Made by a program: the position numbers and the translations under genes. From assembly GCA_028871795.1 (NCBI GenBank), contig JAGWMG010000004.1:1-64000 (forward strand): a stretch of DNA of 64,000 bases, in the 5' to 3' direction. The notes beneath the pieces were generated by a model, which was given only the letters and a program-made list of their open reading frames with translations, ran no database searches and had not been told where the DNA came from. Origin of the DNA: Alphaproteobacteria bacterium. Its GTDB lineage: Bacteria > Pseudomonadota > Alphaproteobacteria > Micropepsales > Micropepsaceae. Of this stretch, positions 48,561 through 58,433 are shown piece by piece (positions within the stretch are counted from its first letter, which is position 1; each line of letters begins with the position of its first letter).

Positions 48561-48566
48561 TATAAT
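48561..48566 (+). promoter_or_regulatory. Candidate -10 element of the tyrosine recombinase gene
   Basis: A perfect TATAAT lies 15 bp before the left inverted repeat and 21 bp before the ATG. The -35 region is poor. If the flanked segment inverts, this promoter would stay outside it. Confidence 0.4.
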
Positions 48567-48580
48567 CCGTATACTGACTA

Positions 48581-48603
48581 AACATTATGGGCGATAGTGA
48601 TAA
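48581..48603. repeat. Left 23-bp inverted repeat flanking the tyrosine recombinase
   Basis: AACA-T-TATGGGCGATAGTG-A-TAA. It matches the reverse complement of 49300-49322 at 21 of 23 positions and includes the ATG at 48587. The 14-bp core is perfect. Confidence 0.85.
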
Positions 48604-49303
48604 CCGTCTGTTGGCGATGTCAACGGAAATTTCTCGCAATACGGGCAAGGATCGGCCACCGTCCAGCATGACGTGGTCGCTCTATGACGCTCATGGACAA
48701 CGAAAATACCTCACTGCCAGGGAACGTGCGGCATTCGTCCGCATAGCGGTGCGGACTGGCGGTCCCGTCGGAACGTTCTGTGCCGTGCTTGCACTCACTG
48801 GAGCGCGCATATCCGAGGCGCTGGCTCTCACACCCGAGCGCATCGACAGGGCCAACGATGCCATCGTATTCGAGACGCTAAAACGCCGAGAGCGTGGGAT
48901 ATTTCGCGCCGTACCAGTGCCGCGCGAACTCGTCGAGTTTCTCTATGAAGTACACGATCTTGAAGCCGTCTCACACGATACCGACCAACCCTTTATGCGC
49001 ATGTGGCCCTGGAGCCGTACGACGGCGTGGAAGCACGTGAAAGCGGTGATGCGCCTCGCAAACATTCCCGAGGCGCAGGCCAAACCGAAGGCGCTCAGGC
49101 ACGCCTTCGGCGTTGAGGCGGTGCAGGATCGCATCGCCATCACCCTCGTGAAGAAATGGCTAGGGCACGCGAAACTCCAATCCACGGAGATATATGCGAC
49201 GCCGTTGGGGAGAGAAGAACGCAGGCTTGCCGCCCACATGTGGCGCGGAATTCGCGGGAGTTTCGGCCCTGGTTCGGATCAAACTGAAAGCGTCAGCCCT
49301 TAA
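48587..49303 (+). CDS. Short tyrosine recombinase (integrase/invertase type)
   Basis: 238 residues. Catalytic residues of the family: Arg74 (TGARISEAL), Lys99 (TLKRRERG), Arg171-His172 (KALRHAFG; the usual box II His is Lys168), His194 (WLGHAKL), Tyr203 (STEIYATPLG). The N-terminal core-binding domain is short or missing. Start ATG 48587 lies in the left repeat; no ribosome site is clear, and ATG 48617 is an alternative. The stop lies in the right repeat. Framing by inverted repeats suggests that it acts on its own flanks. Confidence 0.85.
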   Translation: MGDSDNRLLAMSTEISRNTGKDRPPSSMTWSLYDAHGQRKYLTARERAAFVRIAVRTGGPVGTFCAVLALTGARISEALALTPERIDRANDAIVFETLKRRERGIFRAVPVPRELVEFLYEVHDLEAVSHDTDQPFMRMWPWSRTTAWKHVKAVMRLANIPEAQAKPKALRHAFGVEAVQDRIAITLVKKWLGHAKLQSTEIYATPLGREERRLAAHMWRGIRGSFGPGSDQTESVSP

Positions 49304-49322
49304 CACTATCGCCCATACTGTT
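49300..49322. repeat. Right 23-bp inverted repeat flanking the tyrosine recombinase
   Basis: TTA-A-CACTATCGCCCATA-C-TGTT, the inverted partner of 48581-48603, covering the TAA stop of the recombinase. Centre-to-centre distance 719 bp. Confidence 0.85.
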
Positions 49323-49408
49323 CAGGGATTGAAAATCCTTGAGCAACCTTAAGCTCGGCTCGGGCATGACGCCCGACGTACGGCGGGCGCTTGTGAGTTC
49401 AGTGGGGC

Positions 49409-52865: not shown

Positions 52866-53429
52866 TTATTGACGCCTCCTAACGCACGCGTTCCTCTGCA
52901 ACGGCTCCTTGGGATTTCCATAGTGGACGAAGAGAAGCGCCGCAGCGTTGAAGAGTGCCATGTCCGCGTCCTCGGCATTCCAGGTTTTTCGCTTCTCCGG
53001 GAGCCGGTGACGGATTTCAACGAGATGTGATGCGACCACGGTCGCCACGTCATGCCGGGTCTTGAGATGCGCGCTTGCGAAGTATCCGGCGATCTGCGCC
53101 TTCGAGACGATATGTACCGGAATTCCGTGCATCGTCGCGAGCGAGACCACCGAGCGGCACAGCTTCTTCACGCGTTCGCACCGTCTTGTACCCAGTCCCT
53201 CAAATGCTTCCAGGACGATTGCAGCGGGATGATATTCCGAGACAAGAGACTCGACGCGCTTCATGCATCGGGCGTTTTTCTCCTTGGAGGTTCCCGGCAC
53301 TTTCGCCAGCGTGCATACGTCCCAGCCCACGGGCGATAACGGGCCGTCGAATACGATCCAGCCAAATCCCTCGCGAGAAGGGAAAATGGCGAGCGCGGTA
53401 TCAGCAAACGAACGATTGTTCTTGTTCAT
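52866..53429 (-). CDS. RuvC/RNase H-fold protein, possibly inactive
   Basis: 187 residues. Strand-turn pattern LAIFPSREGFGWIVFDGP at the N-terminus, PAAIVLEAFEG and a C-terminal DADMALFNAAALLF fit the RuvC-like fold of Holliday-junction nucleases. The first catalytic Asp expected at the end of strand 1 is Phe16. The second (Glu in VLEAF) and the last Asp are kept. The start overlaps the XRE gene stop (ATGA). It could be a structural or regulatory relative of resolvases. Confidence 0.6.
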   Translation of the reverse strand: MNKNNRSFADTALAIFPSREGFGWIVFDGPLSPVGWDVCTLAKVPGTSKEKNARCMKRVESLVSEYHPAAIVLEAFEGLGTRRCERVKKLCRSVVSLATMHGIPVHIVSKAQIAGYFASAHLKTRHDVATVVASHLVEIRHRLPEKRKTWNAEDADMALFNAAALLFVHYGNPKEPLQRNACVRRRQ

Positions 53430-53776
53430 ACGTGTAATTGTTCGCCCGCTATTCGAGAGGCAATCTCTTCGAGCAGCTGGCGCTTAATAAGGGTTTCCTT
53501 GTCGTCGAGACTGCCAAACGCCTCGGCCAGCAAGGCCGCGTGCTTGGCGATCTTCGACTCGACAGAGGCATAGAGGGAGGGAAACAGGCGGCGCGCGTGC
53601 ACGCCGAATACGAACTCAGCGCCGATCAGCGCTTCAAGGGACGGCGTACGGAGCAGCTTTTCGTAACGGGAAAGGGACTCGGCGGATACGCCGAGGAGCG
53701 CGCCCAGCTCTCGTTGCGTGAGCGCCCACCGCTTCCGGTTCGTGCGCAAATATGATGGATATGGAAAGTCGTGCAT
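53426..53776 (-). CDS. XRE family HTH regulator
   Basis: 116 residues. The N-terminal HTH is RKRWALTQRELGALLGVSAE, SLSRYEKLLRTP (about 14-45), then a helical C-terminal part. It is the first gene of a two-gene operon with the RuvC-like protein. Two operator-like palindromes lie 94-187 bp upstream, so autoregulation is likely. Confidence 0.85.
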   Translation of the reverse strand: MHDFPYPSYLRTNRKRWALTQRELGALLGVSAESLSRYEKLLRTPSLEALIGAEFVFGVHARRLFPSLYASVESKIAKHAALLAEAFGSLDDKETLIKRQLLEEIASRIAGEQLHV

Positions 53777-53869
53777 TCAGCGCGCAAGCGCTGTGTCCCA
53801 GCTCTCTCCTGAGACGCAGCGGTCGCGTGGGCCATTCTTTCAGACCCACCCCGACTTGTGACGAGGGAT

Positions 53870-53892
53870 GAACTTGCCACCATGGCAAGTTC
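53870..53892. promoter_or_regulatory. Operator-like palindrome GAACTTG-N9-CAAGTTC (copy 1)
   Basis: The perfect 10-bp arms GAACTTGCCA and TGGCAAGTTC are separated by 3 bases, upstream of the XRE/RuvC operon. The same outer arms with the same spacing recur at 58894-58916. Confidence 0.7.
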
Positions 53893-53940
53893 TAAAGGAC
53901 ATCGCGTTCATCTGAACTTCAGAATGACTCCCGAGGTTAC

Positions 53941-53963
53941 GCACTTGCCAAAATGTCAAGATA
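53941..53963. promoter_or_regulatory. Degenerate operator copy GCACTTG-N9-CAAGATA (copy 2)
   Basis: ACTTG and CAAG with the same 9-base centre, 71 bp from copy 1 (centre to centre). It looks like a weaker second binding site for the same factor. Confidence 0.5.
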
Positions 53964-54005
53964 GCCCTCCTTCCTTGGCTAGTCGCTCTCGCGCACGATG
54001 GGCTC

Positions 54006-54185
54006 GTGCGGAACGACGAAGAACGGCCGGGGTACATTTTCGTTAACCGGTATATGCCCGGCGCGAGCGCCGAAGAGCGCGAGGAAGCGTACCAGAACGT
54101 CCGTCAGCTTATCGCCGTCCTTGTACGGATCAATAACCGGCTACGCTGCGAAGCGCAGGAACGCGATTCGCCAGAATCCGATTAA
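54006..54185 (+). CDS. Small unknown protein
   Basis: 59 residues from GTG 54006; too short for a normal ORF cut-off. Sequence around YIFVNRYMPGASAEEREEAY and LIAVLVRINNRL looks protein-like and helical. The frame is open back to 53928 with no other start. It ends 35 bp before the second serine recombinase. Family unknown. Confidence 0.45.
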   Translation: MRNDEERPGYIFVNRYMPGASAEEREEAYQNVRQLIAVLVRINNRLRCEAQERDSPESD

Positions 54186-54220
54186 TGCGATAGATTCGAG
54201 TCCGGTTCTCAGCCGAGCGT

Positions 54221-55759
54221 ATGAAACAATACTTCGCGTACATCCGCGTCTCGACCGTGAAACAGGGGGAACACGGTTCATCCCTCCAGGAACAACGCAG
54301 CGCTATCGAAGCGTATGCCTCGCGCAACAGCCTTTCGATTGTCGCGTGGTTTGAAGAGACGGAAACGGCGGCGAAGCAGGGCCGCACGCATTTCACGAAG
54401 ATGTTGGCGCAACTGGAGCGCGGTATTGCGCAGGGCGTCATCATTCACAAGATCGACCGGAGCGCGCGCAATCTCAAGGATTGGGCAAATCTCGGTGATT
54501 TGATCGACCGGGGAATCGATGTTCATTTCGCGCACGACAGCGTCGATCTGCGCTCCCGCGGCGGTCGTCTCTCGGCGGACATCCAGGCCGTTGTCGCCGC
54601 CGACTACATCCGCAATCTCCGCGACGAAGTGAAAAAAGGATACTACGGCCGCCTCAAACAAGGATTGTTCCCGCTTCCCGCACCCATCGGCTATGTCGAC
54701 CAAGGCAAGGGCAAGCCCAAAATCCCCGATCCGATAAAAGCGCCGCTCGTCCGGGAGGCGTTCGAACTCTATGCGACAGGAACGGTGGGGCTGAAAGACT
54801 TGCGCGTCGAAATGGCGAAGCGCGGCCTCACTTCGACGCGGACGAAGAAGCCCCTATCGCTCTGCGGCATCTCGACGATGCTCAATAATCCATTCTATAT
54901 CGGTCTCATTCACATCAAGCGGACGAACGAGACGTACAACGGCATTCACGAGCCGCTGATTTCCAAAGCCTTGTTCGACCGCGTGCAGGCCATCCTCCGT
55001 GGGAAGCTCGTTGCCCGCGTCTTCAAACACGACTATCTCTTCCGGCGCATGGTTCGCTGCACGGCGTGCGGATACCACCTTATCGGCGAACGCCACAAAG
55101 GCCAGTACATCTACTACCGCTGCCACCAGTGCCCAAACCTCTATATCCGTGAGGAAGACCTGGACCATGCCGTCCAGATACAGCTTCAGCTGCTTCAATG
55201 GGACGAACGCGAAGAACTGAGAGCGAAAGAAGAAGCCGTGATCATGGCGGGCGAGGGCGAGGCGGAACTTGCAAGATTGCGCTCTTCGTTGAAGCTCCGG
55301 CTGGCCCAATGCGACGACCGGCTCTCCCGGCTCACGGACGCTTATATCGATCAGACGATAGACAAGGAGCTGTTTGAGAACCGCAAGCGTGCGGTGCTTG
55401 GAGAGCGCCGGGAACTTCTTGACCGGCTCGAAACTCTGTCTACGGACGACCTACCCGTCAAGATGGCGTTTGACCACCTCGAACTCGGAAACGCGGCTTA
55501 CTACGGCTACAAAAATGGAAACCGGGACGAAAAGCGCGGGATGGTCGAAGCGGTCACCTCGAACTTCGTCGCAGAAGGAAAAAAGCCAGTGATTACACTG
55601 AAATCTCCGTGGCGGGAGGTCGCTAAGTGGCGAGTTTCGTTAAAGGGTGCGCCGCATCGGGGTACGCCTCGTGACCGCGCCAAGCAACTGCTGAATATCG
55701 CACTGGCAGTTGCCAAGGAGTCAAAAAACACCTCCATAGCAAAGAAGAAAGTGGCATGA
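54221..55759 (+). CDS. Second large serine recombinase
   Basis: 512 residues. Catalytic Ser11 in YFAYIRVSTVKQGEHG and the KIDRSARNLKDW Arg motif; recombinase domain with NNPFYIGLIHIKR; zinc ribbon CTACGYHL and CHQCPN (about 278-306); coiled coil (about 345-420). It differs from the integrase at the left end and may belong to a nested element or serve inversion. Its TGA overlaps an ATG of a 45-codon frame. Confidence 0.92.
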   Translation: MKQYFAYIRVSTVKQGEHGSSLQEQRSAIEAYASRNSLSIVAWFEETETAAKQGRTHFTKMLAQLERGIAQGVIIHKIDRSARNLKDWANLGDLIDRGIDVHFAHDSVDLRSRGGRLSADIQAVVAADYIRNLRDEVKKGYYGRLKQGLFPLPAPIGYVDQGKGKPKIPDPIKAPLVREAFELYATGTVGLKDLRVEMAKRGLTSTRTKKPLSLCGISTMLNNPFYIGLIHIKRTNETYNGIHEPLISKALFDRVQAILRGKLVARVFKHDYLFRRMVRCTACGYHLIGERHKGQYIYYRCHQCPNLYIREEDLDHAVQIQLQLLQWDEREELRAKEEAVIMAGEGEAELARLRSSLKLRLAQCDDRLSRLTDAYIDQTIDKELFENRKRAVLGERRELLDRLETLSTDDLPVKMAFDHLELGNAAYYGYKNGNRDEKRGMVEAVTSNFVAEGKKPVITLKSPWREVAKWRVSLKGAPHRGTPRDRAKQLLNIALAVAKESKNTSIAKKKVA

Positions 55760-55950: not shown

Positions 55951-57021
55951 ATGGCTCAGAACCGCTTCGGCAAACGCATAGCCCTCACCCAGGCCATCCT
56001 CGGGAAGATCGCCAAGATCGACGAGTTGAAAGGCCTCTGGCAGGGAAGCGTGCGCGTGAGCCCCCAGATATTAGGGCGCTTGAAGTCATGGGTCATTATC
56101 ACCTCGACCGGCGCCTCGACCCGCATCGAAGGCGCGCGGATGACGGACGAGGAAATCGCCCGCTTTCTCCGGGGCTTCAAGGGCAAGCGCCCCAAGAGCC
56201 GCGATGAACAGGAGGTCGCCGGGTATGCCGACCTCATCGGTCGCATATTCGACAACTGGAAGACGATCAAGCTCACCGAGGGATGGATACTCCAGTTCCA
56301 CGGCATGCTTCTCAAGTTCTCCGACAAGGATCGCGTTCACAAAGGCACATACAAGAGCGCGCCCAACACCGTGGTCATGGTGAATGAGAAAGGCGAGCAG
56401 GCCGTCCTCTTCGAGCCGACGCCGCCGTACCTCGTCCAAGGCGAGATGCGCTCCGCCATCGAGTGGGCGAACCGGGAACTCGAAAACGGCGAGACGCACC
56501 CGCTTCTCGTGATCGCGAACTTCATCTTCGAGTTCCTCGCCATTCACCCCTTCGCGGACGGCAACGGCCGTGTATCCCGGGCGCTCACCAATCTGCTTCT
56601 CCTTCGCGCCGGATACGCCTATGTGCCGTATGTCTCCCTGGACGAAATCATCGAGCGGACGAAATCCGAATACTATCTCGCGCTCCGCGCCGCGCAGAAG
56701 CGCCACAAGACGAAGCGCGAGGACGTGACGCCGTGGGTATCGTACCTCCTCTCCGCCCTGACCGAGCAGGCTGAGCGCGCTCGTGCGCTCATGGAAAACG
56801 ACCAGCCGGAGAAGCTCCTCTCCGAAAAGCAGGCGGCGGTATACCGCTTGTTCGACGGAGGGAAAGAACTGGCCGTCGCGGAGATACATTTGCTTCTCAA
56901 AAAAACGGTACCGCTGCCGACGATCAAACAGGCACTCTCGCGCCTCACGAAGCTGAAGCTCCTGGAGCGCATCGGCCAGGGGCGCGGCACGCGGTATAGA
57001 CGGACAGCAAGCATAGATTAA
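55951..57021 (+). CDS. Fic domain protein 1 (class II, N-terminal inhibitory helix)
   Basis: 356 residues. Fic core motif HPFADGNGRVSR with His199; the inhibitory helix motif (S/T)xxxE(G/N) is present as Ser56-Glu60-Gly61 in ASTRIEGARM, so activity is held by the protein itself. The C-terminus is a winged-helix-like part (PLPTIKQALSRLTKLKLLER). Fic proteins AMPylate targets. AT-rich DNA upstream has two direct TATAGTT repeats. No separate antitoxin gene is next to it. Confidence 0.9.
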   Translation: MAQNRFGKRIALTQAILGKIAKIDELKGLWQGSVRVSPQILGRLKSWVIITSTGASTRIEGARMTDEEIARFLRGFKGKRPKSRDEQEVAGYADLIGRIFDNWKTIKLTEGWILQFHGMLLKFSDKDRVHKGTYKSAPNTVVMVNEKGEQAVLFEPTPPYLVQGEMRSAIEWANRELENGETHPLLVIANFIFEFLAIHPFADGNGRVSRALTNLLLLRAGYAYVPYVSLDEIIERTKSEYYLALRAAQKRHKTKREDVTPWVSYLLSALTEQAERARALMENDQPEKLLSEKQAAVYRLFDGGKELAVAEIHLLLKKTVPLPTIKQALSRLTKLKLLERIGQGRGTRYRRTASID

Positions 57022-57062
57022 CGTTGGACCAGGCAACCCAACAGATGACATAATTTGGGCGC

Positions 57063-57160
57063 TTGGATGCACGCGTTCACCGCACCTCGGTACACGCCAG
57101 TATGATCTGGTGTATCCACGCCGCGCCGGCCTTCGTCTGCCCCGAGACGACGGTTTTCCG
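57063..57160 (-). repeat. Partial copy of the small gene at 58565-58828, downstream of fic 1
   Basis: About 85 bp are nearly identical to 58565-58650, the 3' end of the small minus-strand gene. The frame kept here gives RKTVVSGQTKAGAAWIHQII then LACTEVR and the stop, but a TGA lies 5 codons before the possible GTG. It is a truncated duplicate between the two fic genes. Confidence 0.75.
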
Positions 57161-57225
57161 GTTAGGCACTCGGCAACGTCACAGACTCCAACCGGCATGC
57201 TTTCGAGTGCGTTCAGGCCATGTCG

Positions 57226-57254
57226 TGCGGAGATTAGAGCGTCTAATCTCCGCA
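57226..57254. promoter_or_regulatory. fic 2 operator site 1 (TGCGGAGAT-N11-ATCTCCGCA)
   Basis: A perfect 13-bp inverted repeat (TGCGGAGATTAGA / TCTAATCTCCGCA, 3-base centre), upstream of the fic 2 promoter. Same outer arms and spacing as site 2. Confidence 0.75.
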
Positions 57255-57272
57255 TCTATGCTTAGAATATTG

Positions 57273-57301
57273 TTGCTCGTGCGGAGATAGCACGGTATAA
57301 T
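57273..57301 (+). promoter_or_regulatory. fic 2 promoter
   Basis: TTGCTC (57273-57278), 17-bp spacer, perfect TATAAT (57296-57301). Transcription would start near 57308, very close to the ATGs at 57312, 57321 and 57327, so the message is almost leaderless if the first is used. Confidence 0.6.
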
Positions 57302-57308
57302 CTCCGCA
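57280..57308. promoter_or_regulatory. fic 2 operator site 2, covering the -10 box
   Basis: TGCGGAGAT (57280-57288), 11-base centre, ATCTCCGCA (57300-57308). It overlaps the promoter. Its centre is 54 bp from site 1, about five helical turns. Confidence 0.75.
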
Positions 57309-57311
57309 ACG

Positions 57312-58433
57312 ATGCAGAGAATGACCATGTACATCTATCAACGGAAAGGCTGGCCGAAATTCACGTGGGATGCCGCTCGCTTGTCCGGGCGGCTTGCTGC
57401 CACGCACGCCTTACAAGGGCGGCTCCTGGGGCATATGCAGGCTCTCGGCTTCGAGCTTCGCGCCGAAGCCACGCTTGAGAGCCTCACGGCCGAAGTCATC
57501 AAATCGAGTGAGATAGAAGGCCGTGTCCTCGACGTGACGCAAGTTCGCTCCTCCCTGGCGCGCCGTCTCGGCATGGATGTCGGCGCGCTCGCGCGAGTGG
57601 ACCGCAATGTCGAAGGCATCGTCGACATGATGCTCGACGCGACTCAAGAATTCACGAAGCCGCTTTCGGCAAGACGCCTGTTCGGCTGGCACGCGGCGCT
57701 CTTCCCGACGGGCCGGAGCGGCATGCACAAGATCACCGTTGGCGGTTGGCGGACGGACACAACCGGCGCCATGCAGGTCGTGTCGGGTCCGATTGGCCGT
57801 GAGCGCGTCCACTACGAAGCCCCGGCGGCCTCCGCGCTCCCGGGCGAGATGCGGGCGTTCATCGCATGGTTCAACCGGTACGACGGCACGGATTTGGTGC
57901 TCCGTGCCGGCGTCGCGCACCTCTGGTTCGTGACCATCCATCCCTTCGACGACGGCAACGGCCGCATCGCGCGCGCCATCGCTGACATGGCGCTCGCGCG
58001 CTCCGAAAAAAACCCGCAGCGCTTCTACAGCATGTCCTCTCAGATTCAGGAAGACCGCTCCGCCTATTACAACATCCTGGAGGCCACGCAGAAAGGCGGA
58101 CTCGACATCACGCCCTGGCTCGATTGGTTTCTCGGCTGCCTTGGCCGCGCGTTTGAGGGCGCGGAGGACATCCTGGCCTCCGTGCTCCGGAAGGCGCGTT
58201 TCTGGAAGCGTCACGCCGAGGCATCGTTCAACGAACGGCAACGGCTGGTGGTCAACCGCATGCTCGACGGCTTCGAGGGCAAGCTCACGTCATCAAAATG
58301 GGCAAAGCTCGCCAAGTGCTCGCAGGATACCGCGGGCCGCGATATCGACGACTTGCTCAAACGCGGCATCTTGACCAAGAACGCCGCGGGCGGGCGAAGC
58401 ACCAACTACTCGCTGGCAGAGGAGCCGGCATAA
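57312..58433 (+). CDS. Fic domain protein 2 (DUF4172-type N-terminus, class II)
   Basis: 373 residues from ATG 57312 (ATGs at 57321 and 57327 also possible). N-terminal DUF4172 segment MYIYQRKGWPKFTWDAARL; inhibitory motif Ser65-Glu69-Gly70 in KSSEIEGRVL; Fic core HPFDDGNGRIARA with His210; C-terminal winged helix (TSSKWAKLAKCSQDTAGRDI, about 325-368). The two identical-arm operators at its promoter suggest autoregulation, perhaps by its own wHTH. Confidence 0.9.
   Translation: MQRMTMYIYQRKGWPKFTWDAARLSGRLAATHALQGRLLGHMQALGFELRAEATLESLTAEVIKSSEIEGRVLDVTQVRSSLARRLGMDVGALARVDRNVEGIVDMMLDATQEFTKPLSARRLFGWHAALFPTGRSGMHKITVGGWRTDTTGAMQVVSGPIGRERVHYEAPAASALPGEMRAFIAWFNRYDGTDLVLRAGVAHLWFVTIHPFDDGNGRIARAIADMALARSEKNPQRFYSMSSQIQEDRSAYYNILEATQKGGLDITPWLDWFLGCLGRAFEGAEDILASVLRKARFWKRHAEASFNERQRLVVNRMLDGFEGKLTSSKWAKLAKCSQDTAGRDIDDLLKRGILTKNAAGGRSTNYSLAEEPA

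Follow-up and report, generated by a model that had tools for sequence, protein, structure and literature searches.

The segment 48579-49324 of the window (the whole 64,000-nt stretch of DNA analysed) has the appearance of a minimal self-contained recombination cassette, in which one short tyrosine recombinase gene is enclosed by two inverted sites with the same spacer. On balance, its sequence speaks for a self-encoded invertible cassette that would uncouple its own gene from an outside promoter, with inversion and self-limitation as the main role. The unit is one minimal case of a wider family of seemingly mobile, often cargo-bearing cassettes, and flanked units, with sites on both sides of the gene, are probably mobile as well as invertible to judge from their ends. 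The unit and its borders comprise the following features.

48561-48566, plus strand: TATAAT, the sequence named in the first-pass annotation
48570-48575, plus strand: TATACT, -10-like box adjoining the left site, a putative promoter element
48579-48603, plus strand: left core site, TAAACATTAT-GGGCG-ATAGTGATAA, containing the start codon (outer arm 48579-48588, spacer 48589-48593, inner arm 48594-48603)
48587-49303, plus strand: tyrosine recombinase of 238 aa, predicted to be a catalytic domain only (PF00589, E 7.3e-15)
49300-49324, minus strand: right core site, inverted, TGAACAGTAT-GGGCG-ATAGTGTTAA, containing the stop codon TAA
49409-49795, plus strand: SpeD-like S-adenosylmethionine decarboxylase, first gene past the right site (PF02675, E 7.9e-23)

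The inverted 23-bp pair that the first-pass annotation described (48581-48603 and 49300-49322) is confirmed by the sequence and by a repeat search, as is its exact 14-bp core (48586-48599 and 49304-49317); arms extended to 48578-48603 and 49300-49325 are 88% complementary. The observation is real and not due to chance: this is the sole pair of inverted 23-mers in the 64-kb window with at least 21 of 23 matches and at most 1.5 kb between them, and 20 shuffled windows (1-kb blocks) contain none. No third copy of the 14-bp core with at most one mismatch occurs in the window's genome, where a control motif has one match. Each repeat is an imperfect palindrome that forms a 25-bp core site, with a 5-bp spacer between two 10-bp arms. 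This 10-5-10 palindrome is the build of a tyrosine recombinase core site, and the repeats are therefore read as core sites. The ATG (48587-48589) lies inside the left copy and the TAA (49301-49303) inside the right one, as had been stated, and the claim that the inverted gene would offer a frame of only seven codons holds in silico, where the frame reads MGDSVKG followed by a stop. The TATAAT said to lie outside the left copy is present; in relatives, however, the recurrent box is closer to the site, and its counterpart here is TATACT.

The identity of the enzyme as a tyrosine recombinase is borne out by its Pfam score (PF00589, 55.6 bits versus a cut-off of 27.1), and Phage_integrase is the only Pfam match of the gene between the sites. 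Residues R74, K99, K168, R171, H194 and Y203 are invariant in all 12 aligned relatives; we take them to be the catalytic residues, with Lys168 presumably at the position where His is usual. The TIGR02225 match covers only positions 134-272 of the 290 in the profile. The predicted structure (mean pLDDT 75.7) shows one domain after a low-confidence start, the stretch 197-204 that includes Y203 having pLDDT <50, and fold comparison gives a match to Xer recombinases. As modelled, the enzyme is a catalytic domain only, with no room for a core-binding domain. This sets the family apart from the simple tyrosine recombinases, which have a core-binding and a catalytic domain according to the part of the classification in PMC8138268 that was consulted. 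The match to PRK09871 (NCBIfam) is weak (E 2.7e-8, 33.6 bits versus a cut-off of 222), below the curated score of the FimB type, and phage records yield four distant matches with 29-32% identity.

Homologues were sought in 61 genomes, 37 of them of the genus, for which 69 genomes were available. Strong similarity is found at 25 places in 12 genus genomes (E up to 4.7e-25). An inverted site pair accompanies 22 of them and one site was found in the other three (L067, L073 and L074). Homologues lacking flanking repeats, which according to the first-pass annotation would speak against a switch, are represented only by more distant plasmid homologues, in which no convincing pair is seen. Three layouts can be distinguished. 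In types A and B, with TGAACAGnAT-like and TGAAACAnTAT-like arms, respectively, the gene stands between its sites, either alone or together with cargo; including the outer T of the type B arms changes the count from 10-5-10 to 11-5-11. In type C (L069-L072 and L085-L087 in the genus) the two sites precede the gene and are separated by 130-148 bp. Motif searches match in 15 of 60 genus genomes for type A, and in eight and five of 69 for types B and C, and the reversed control motif gives zero matches in each case. At least one match, that of type A in genome G064 (L084), is not part of a unit and looks like chance. These searches bring further units (L075, L078, L083, L121-L123 and L125) and also remnants. 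The closest homologue, L048, shares 79% identity and comes from a Rhizomicrobium metagenome-assembled genome, on a 5,658-bp contig that is apparently the same as that of L033. B and C each form a well supported clade in a tree of 41 proteins, where the window enzyme, L048 and L058 fall together next to clade B, at a fork with support of only 89/73. Contig C15 of G016 (L047/L073) carries a decayed recombinase copy with a right-type site downstream; the 88-bp exact direct match between the overlapping search regions may be one stretch counted twice. In G085, contigs C1 and C11 (L124/L125) each carry a type B site with spacer GCCGG; the two are perhaps the ends of one unit of ~12 kb split by assembly.

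The family extends beyond the genus. Of 385 genomes covered by a class-wide profile search, 16 contain strong relatives, and two of these 16 belong to the genus. Twelve plasmid loci were scanned for site pairs against three shuffles per locus, a thin control under which 10 of the 12 have a top inverted pair scoring above the shuffles; only L112 (Novosphingobium) and L113 (Sphingomonas parapaucimobilis), with flanking inverted pairs, matching spacers and a clear margin over the shuffles, are counted, and L107, L109-L111, L114, L115, L117 and L118 were left out by eye. No convincing pair is seen in the Acetobacteraceae plasmid homologues (L107-L111, L049, L050 and L052), several of which score slightly above three shuffles; these homologues lie mostly beside rep/par genes. 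Scanning of 31 further loci, namely 14 of 35 IMG/VR matches (L126-L139) and 17 of 20 genomic places, again with a thin control of three shuffles each, yields a site-like matched pair above all three shuffles in 14. Three are flanked recombinase-only units in other genera (L181, L185 and L186) and 11 are of type C (L127, L132, L133, L136, L184, L191, L192 and L194-L197), L132 and L133 being near-copies and L136 close to both. Outside the genus, type C sites are 122-135 bp apart, and it is this constant spacing together with the like arms, and not the shuffles, that gives weight to the pairs found there. Three loci with type C spacing (L134, L182 and L193) are borderline, as their site-like pairs are tied or outscored by other pairs. 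The plasmid locus L114 is a further borderline case of type C. In the other 14 of the 31 no site-like pair is seen; the top pair of L128, L130, L135, L187, L188 and L190 exceeds its shuffles and is not site-like by eye. Type C occurs in several alphaproteobacterial families and in some IMG/VR contigs, and its site pair has the look of a very small promoter segment that can invert, or of an attachment site that folds. The plasmid unit L113 (NZ_CP155750) is recombinase-only, and its inverted sites match at 26/27. An EAL gene with a chaperone-usher fimbrial cluster borders it on one side and a response regulator on the other, and it is a candidate fimbrial switch.

The key comparison concerns the spacers. 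All 30 tabulated pairs, among which 17 spacer sequences occur, carry the same spacer at both sites in inverted register, while the arms agree at a mean of 81% (outer) and 91% (inner). Random re-pairing (20,000 trials) gives a mean of 3.4 and a maximum of 10 spacer matches out of 30. Scoring by arms only recovers 27 of the 30 pairs, and in the 11 pairs first found by arms alone (L057, L058, L060, L062, L063, L065, L075, L083 and L121-L123) all spacers match. The remaining pairs were first spotted by whole-site likeness, which favours matching spacers, so that the test is weaker for them. Since tyrosine recombinases generally require partner sites to be identical in the overlap region, matched spacers in inverted orientation point to exchange between the two sites, with inversion as the product, and recombination between the sites is likely. 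The enclosed enzyme would bind, and presumably cut, two palindromic 25-bp core sites in inverted orientation, and exchange within the identical spacers would invert all DNA between them.

In L048 the start and stop codons again lie within the sites, and the left site contains the start codon in all five B units read. The same is possible in L083 and, in another genus, L181, two loci in which the reading frame also stays open beyond this point on the upstream side. In nearly all units the left outer arm ends in AT, making ATG with the G of the spacer; among right sites, many of type A and some of type B have an outer arm ending in TT, which after inversion would make the weaker start TTG (seen in L119). 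Of 23 flanked units, 12 have a -10-like box (TA...T) beyond the left site, two of them a weak one (L059 and L061), and one has such a box beyond the right site. With the box outside and the start codon in the left site, inversion would uncouple the gene from the promoter: transcription would come from the box just outside the left site, the flip would separate gene and promoter, and the enzyme would limit itself. Against this stands the lack of a visible box in most A units with spacer GCTGT and in all seven type C units. The flanked layout would turn the gene relative to an outside promoter and type C a short upstream stretch, and both could follow a common logic of self-uncoupling.

The self-silencing switch proposed in the first-pass annotation survives in part. 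The repeats do look like sites of the enzyme, the layout is kept in L048 and recurs elsewhere, spacers match throughout and a box lies outside the left site; on the other side, no intact inverted unit was found at the shared flanks compared, and the record of inversion consists of one decayed junction (L119). A self-silencing flip should leave silenced copies, yet orientations agree in 13 of 13 comparisons at shared flanks (four units at a relaxase module, four B units, the window unit with L048, and seven C loci). The following matches are not part of this count: sequence on the left of L060 recurs, without change of direction, on the right of L062; the distal left flanks of L063 and L075 match in inverted orientation; and short same-direction matches connect L058 with L060 and the window or L048 with L056. 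In L119 (G004), the 5' end of a recombinase gene (NFVSKALAKSTAII, in frame) is joined to a right-type outer arm, and beyond the junction a gene that by eye encodes an exported protein lies on the opposite strand. This is the kind of junction that inversion would leave, later decayed; the alternative is an insertion in reverse orientation.

It is possible, although we consider it unlikely, that the unit is mainly a mobile cassette, insertion-sequence-like or dif-module-like, with inversion as a by-product: the inverted sites would be its ends, serving movement or the exchange of cassettes between replicons with the same spacer. The borders of several units fit such a role. L062, L063, L065 and L078, each from a different genome, are alike over the site and the recombinase (mostly 57-92% per 60-column window). 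Their similarity is down to 15-50% in the first 20 bp beyond the left site and, at the right end, is limited to the last 28 bp (82-96%). Homology ends sharply at the sites, and the units therefore look mobile too. The same reading is favoured by the multiplicity of copies within single genomes (G034, for instance, has seven homologues), by L075, which has ends and cargo without a recombinase, and by four units (L057, L058, L062 and L083) that, by eye, lie on the same side of a conjugation-type module (relaxase, MobC-like and coupling protein) with different cargo. The first-pass annotation had suggested a search of relatives for the same repeats with other contents, and unrelated cargo is indeed found between like ends.

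Other observations speak against movement as the principal role. Excision requires direct repeats and the spacers here are inverted; target duplication is not seen in the flanks inspected, and the window unit and L048 may share simple descent. Nor could a clean empty site be aligned. The left flank common to L057, L058, L062 and L083, searched against the 69 genus genomes, matches in nine of them, with a long 1.1-kb match at seven places in six genomes, including that of the query itself and one on contig C1 of the window's genome. Three places without an adjacent unit (L104-L106) share the left side with units and have no adjoining stretch on the right, so that they do not provide a clean empty site. 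The single solo site with two outer-type arms is palindromic (L120:6575-6601, contig C8 of G085); it lies directly 5' of a gene that is lipoprotein-like by eye and may be an empty site.

Cargo is frequent and diverse. The 26 flanked units counted (23 in the spacer table plus L181, L185 and L186) include 11 with the recombinase only. These measure 717-752 bp in the window, L048, L061, L068, L121, L122, L181, L185 and L186, 844 bp in L113 and 947 bp in L112, where the open frame extends beyond the right site. Cargo is present in 12 of the 26; in the other three, the recombinase gene is split (L123), the unit is decayed (L078), or the recombinase is missing (L075). Encoded proteins comprise a CAP12-type TIR and a phosphorylase-like protein (L065), GmrSD_N and FRG (L059), HNH (L060), DACNV with a sub-threshold DAC match (L063), a cold-shock domain with sub-threshold AAA matches (L083), a carbamoyltransferase and a glycosyltransferase (L064) and a C39-like peptidase (L066), with an HTH match (L057) and an ACT match (L056) just under the cut-off; cargo genes of L055, L058 and L062 have no Pfam match. 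PADLOC, applied to ten type A cargo proteins, gives strong matches for both proteins of L065 and weak ones for L057, L062, L063 and L083. As a rule, cargo set for switching on by inversion is rejected; the gene at the right end points inward in nine of 12 cargo units, which is suggestive only.

Returning to the invertible cassette, it is tempting to propose, tentatively, a distinct element class of single-gene, self-encoded tyrosine recombinase cassettes with spacer-matched inverted ends, self-limiting by flipping away from an external promoter. Its larger members would have interchangeable cargo, including defence-like effectors that inversion could put under that promoter, and the type C layout could reach the same uncoupling by flipping the promoter.

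Quite improbable is the view that the sites serve only as operators, at which the enzyme or some other protein binds and regulates the gene, and are never recombined. The left site does adjoin a -10-like box in many units, and type C sites are both upstream of the gene at the short distances given above, within and outside the genus; however, an operator has no reason for identical 5-bp spacers that vary from pair to pair while arms drift, and an autorepressor would not bind past the stop codon or several kb downstream. Least credible of all is a relic or coincidence, in which the repeats would be the ends of a defunct element and have no function today. Decayed relatives do exist (L073, L076, L078 and L119), but the window unit has an intact reading frame, conserved catalytic residues and sites kept in its homologue of 79% identity.

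Several known systems resemble the family in part. Acinetobacter pdif modules or xrs cassettes are, in the consulted portions of PMC11705084 and PMC12907356, plasmid-borne adaptive genes of variable content bounded by mostly inverted tyrosine recombinase core sites of 28 bp (11-6-11) with central regions that often differ; they encode only sites and cargo and use the host XerC/XerD. The window family shares inverted core sites around variable genes, whereas its recombinase is inside the unit, its sites are 10-5-10 and its spacers match in all tabulated pairs. FimB and FimE are small tyrosine recombinases with a catalytic domain only and inverted sites close by, and they lie outside the segment that they invert. 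Type C with its short upstream segment is reminiscent of them; flanked units differ in holding the recombinase gene inside the segment, often with cargo. Hin of Salmonella is a serine recombinase, and its segment carries a promoter for neighbouring genes. The hin gene itself lies within the invertible segment, as stated in the portion consulted of PMC5903667. Unlike Hin, the window family has its -10-like box outside the segment and a tyrosine recombinase as enzyme. RIT, GInt and SE are tyrosine recombinase elements with two or three recombinase(-like) genes and partners, RIT and SE with inverted terminal repeats and SE with spacers from different sources at its two ends, according to the sections considered of PMC10214605. 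The window unit has one short recombinase gene instead of the three genes of RIT, and matched spacers. It is also distinct from DDE insertion sequences, as its gene matches only Phage_integrase and no DDE transposase. Integrase elements of the Tn916 type have unrelated coupling sequences at their two ends, unlike the 30 of 30 identical spacer pairs here. In the titles and abstract openings of the literature searched, no description was recognised as a recombinase between its own inverted sites.

Most short tyrosine recombinases carry no annotation beyond 'site-specific integrase'. In dozens of loci of this family the sequence itself reveals the likely substrate, with both sites, their spacer and their orientation, and inversion, self-limitation and cassette exchange are therefore directly testable. 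How cassettes of the pdif kind, with their inverted core sites, are moved is an open question on which the family bears as a system equipped with its own enzyme; the family is also a possible vehicle for defence-like genes in Alphaproteobacteria.

Genes near the units vary. The SpeD gene group, beside which the switch had been placed, is not a general companion: relatives have other genes at that place, often for exported proteins, so that SpeD as a partner of the recombinase unit is rejected and, from this comparison, the SpeD-like gene is probably not part of the window unit. An exported- or lipoprotein-like product is encoded by the first gene past the right site in 12 of 26 flanked units (25 with an open reading frame), compared with 8.9% of 1,009 control positions, at a threshold chosen after seeing the data. 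One of ten downstream proteins has a Pfam family, Sel1 (L060). A tRNA as target is rejected: the 64-kb window contains none, and among 19 loci there are only two tRNAs, both >5 kb from the unit. Further along the window, at 52866-55759, lie a gene of 187 aa that resembles RuvC by eye and matches no Pfam family, an HTH gene, and a large gene that is serine recombinase-like by eye. Homologous DNA follows the unit in L048, and a protein of 169 aa similar to the RuvC-like one is encoded near the B unit L059. Two neighbouring genes, Fic-like by eye, occupy 55951-58433.
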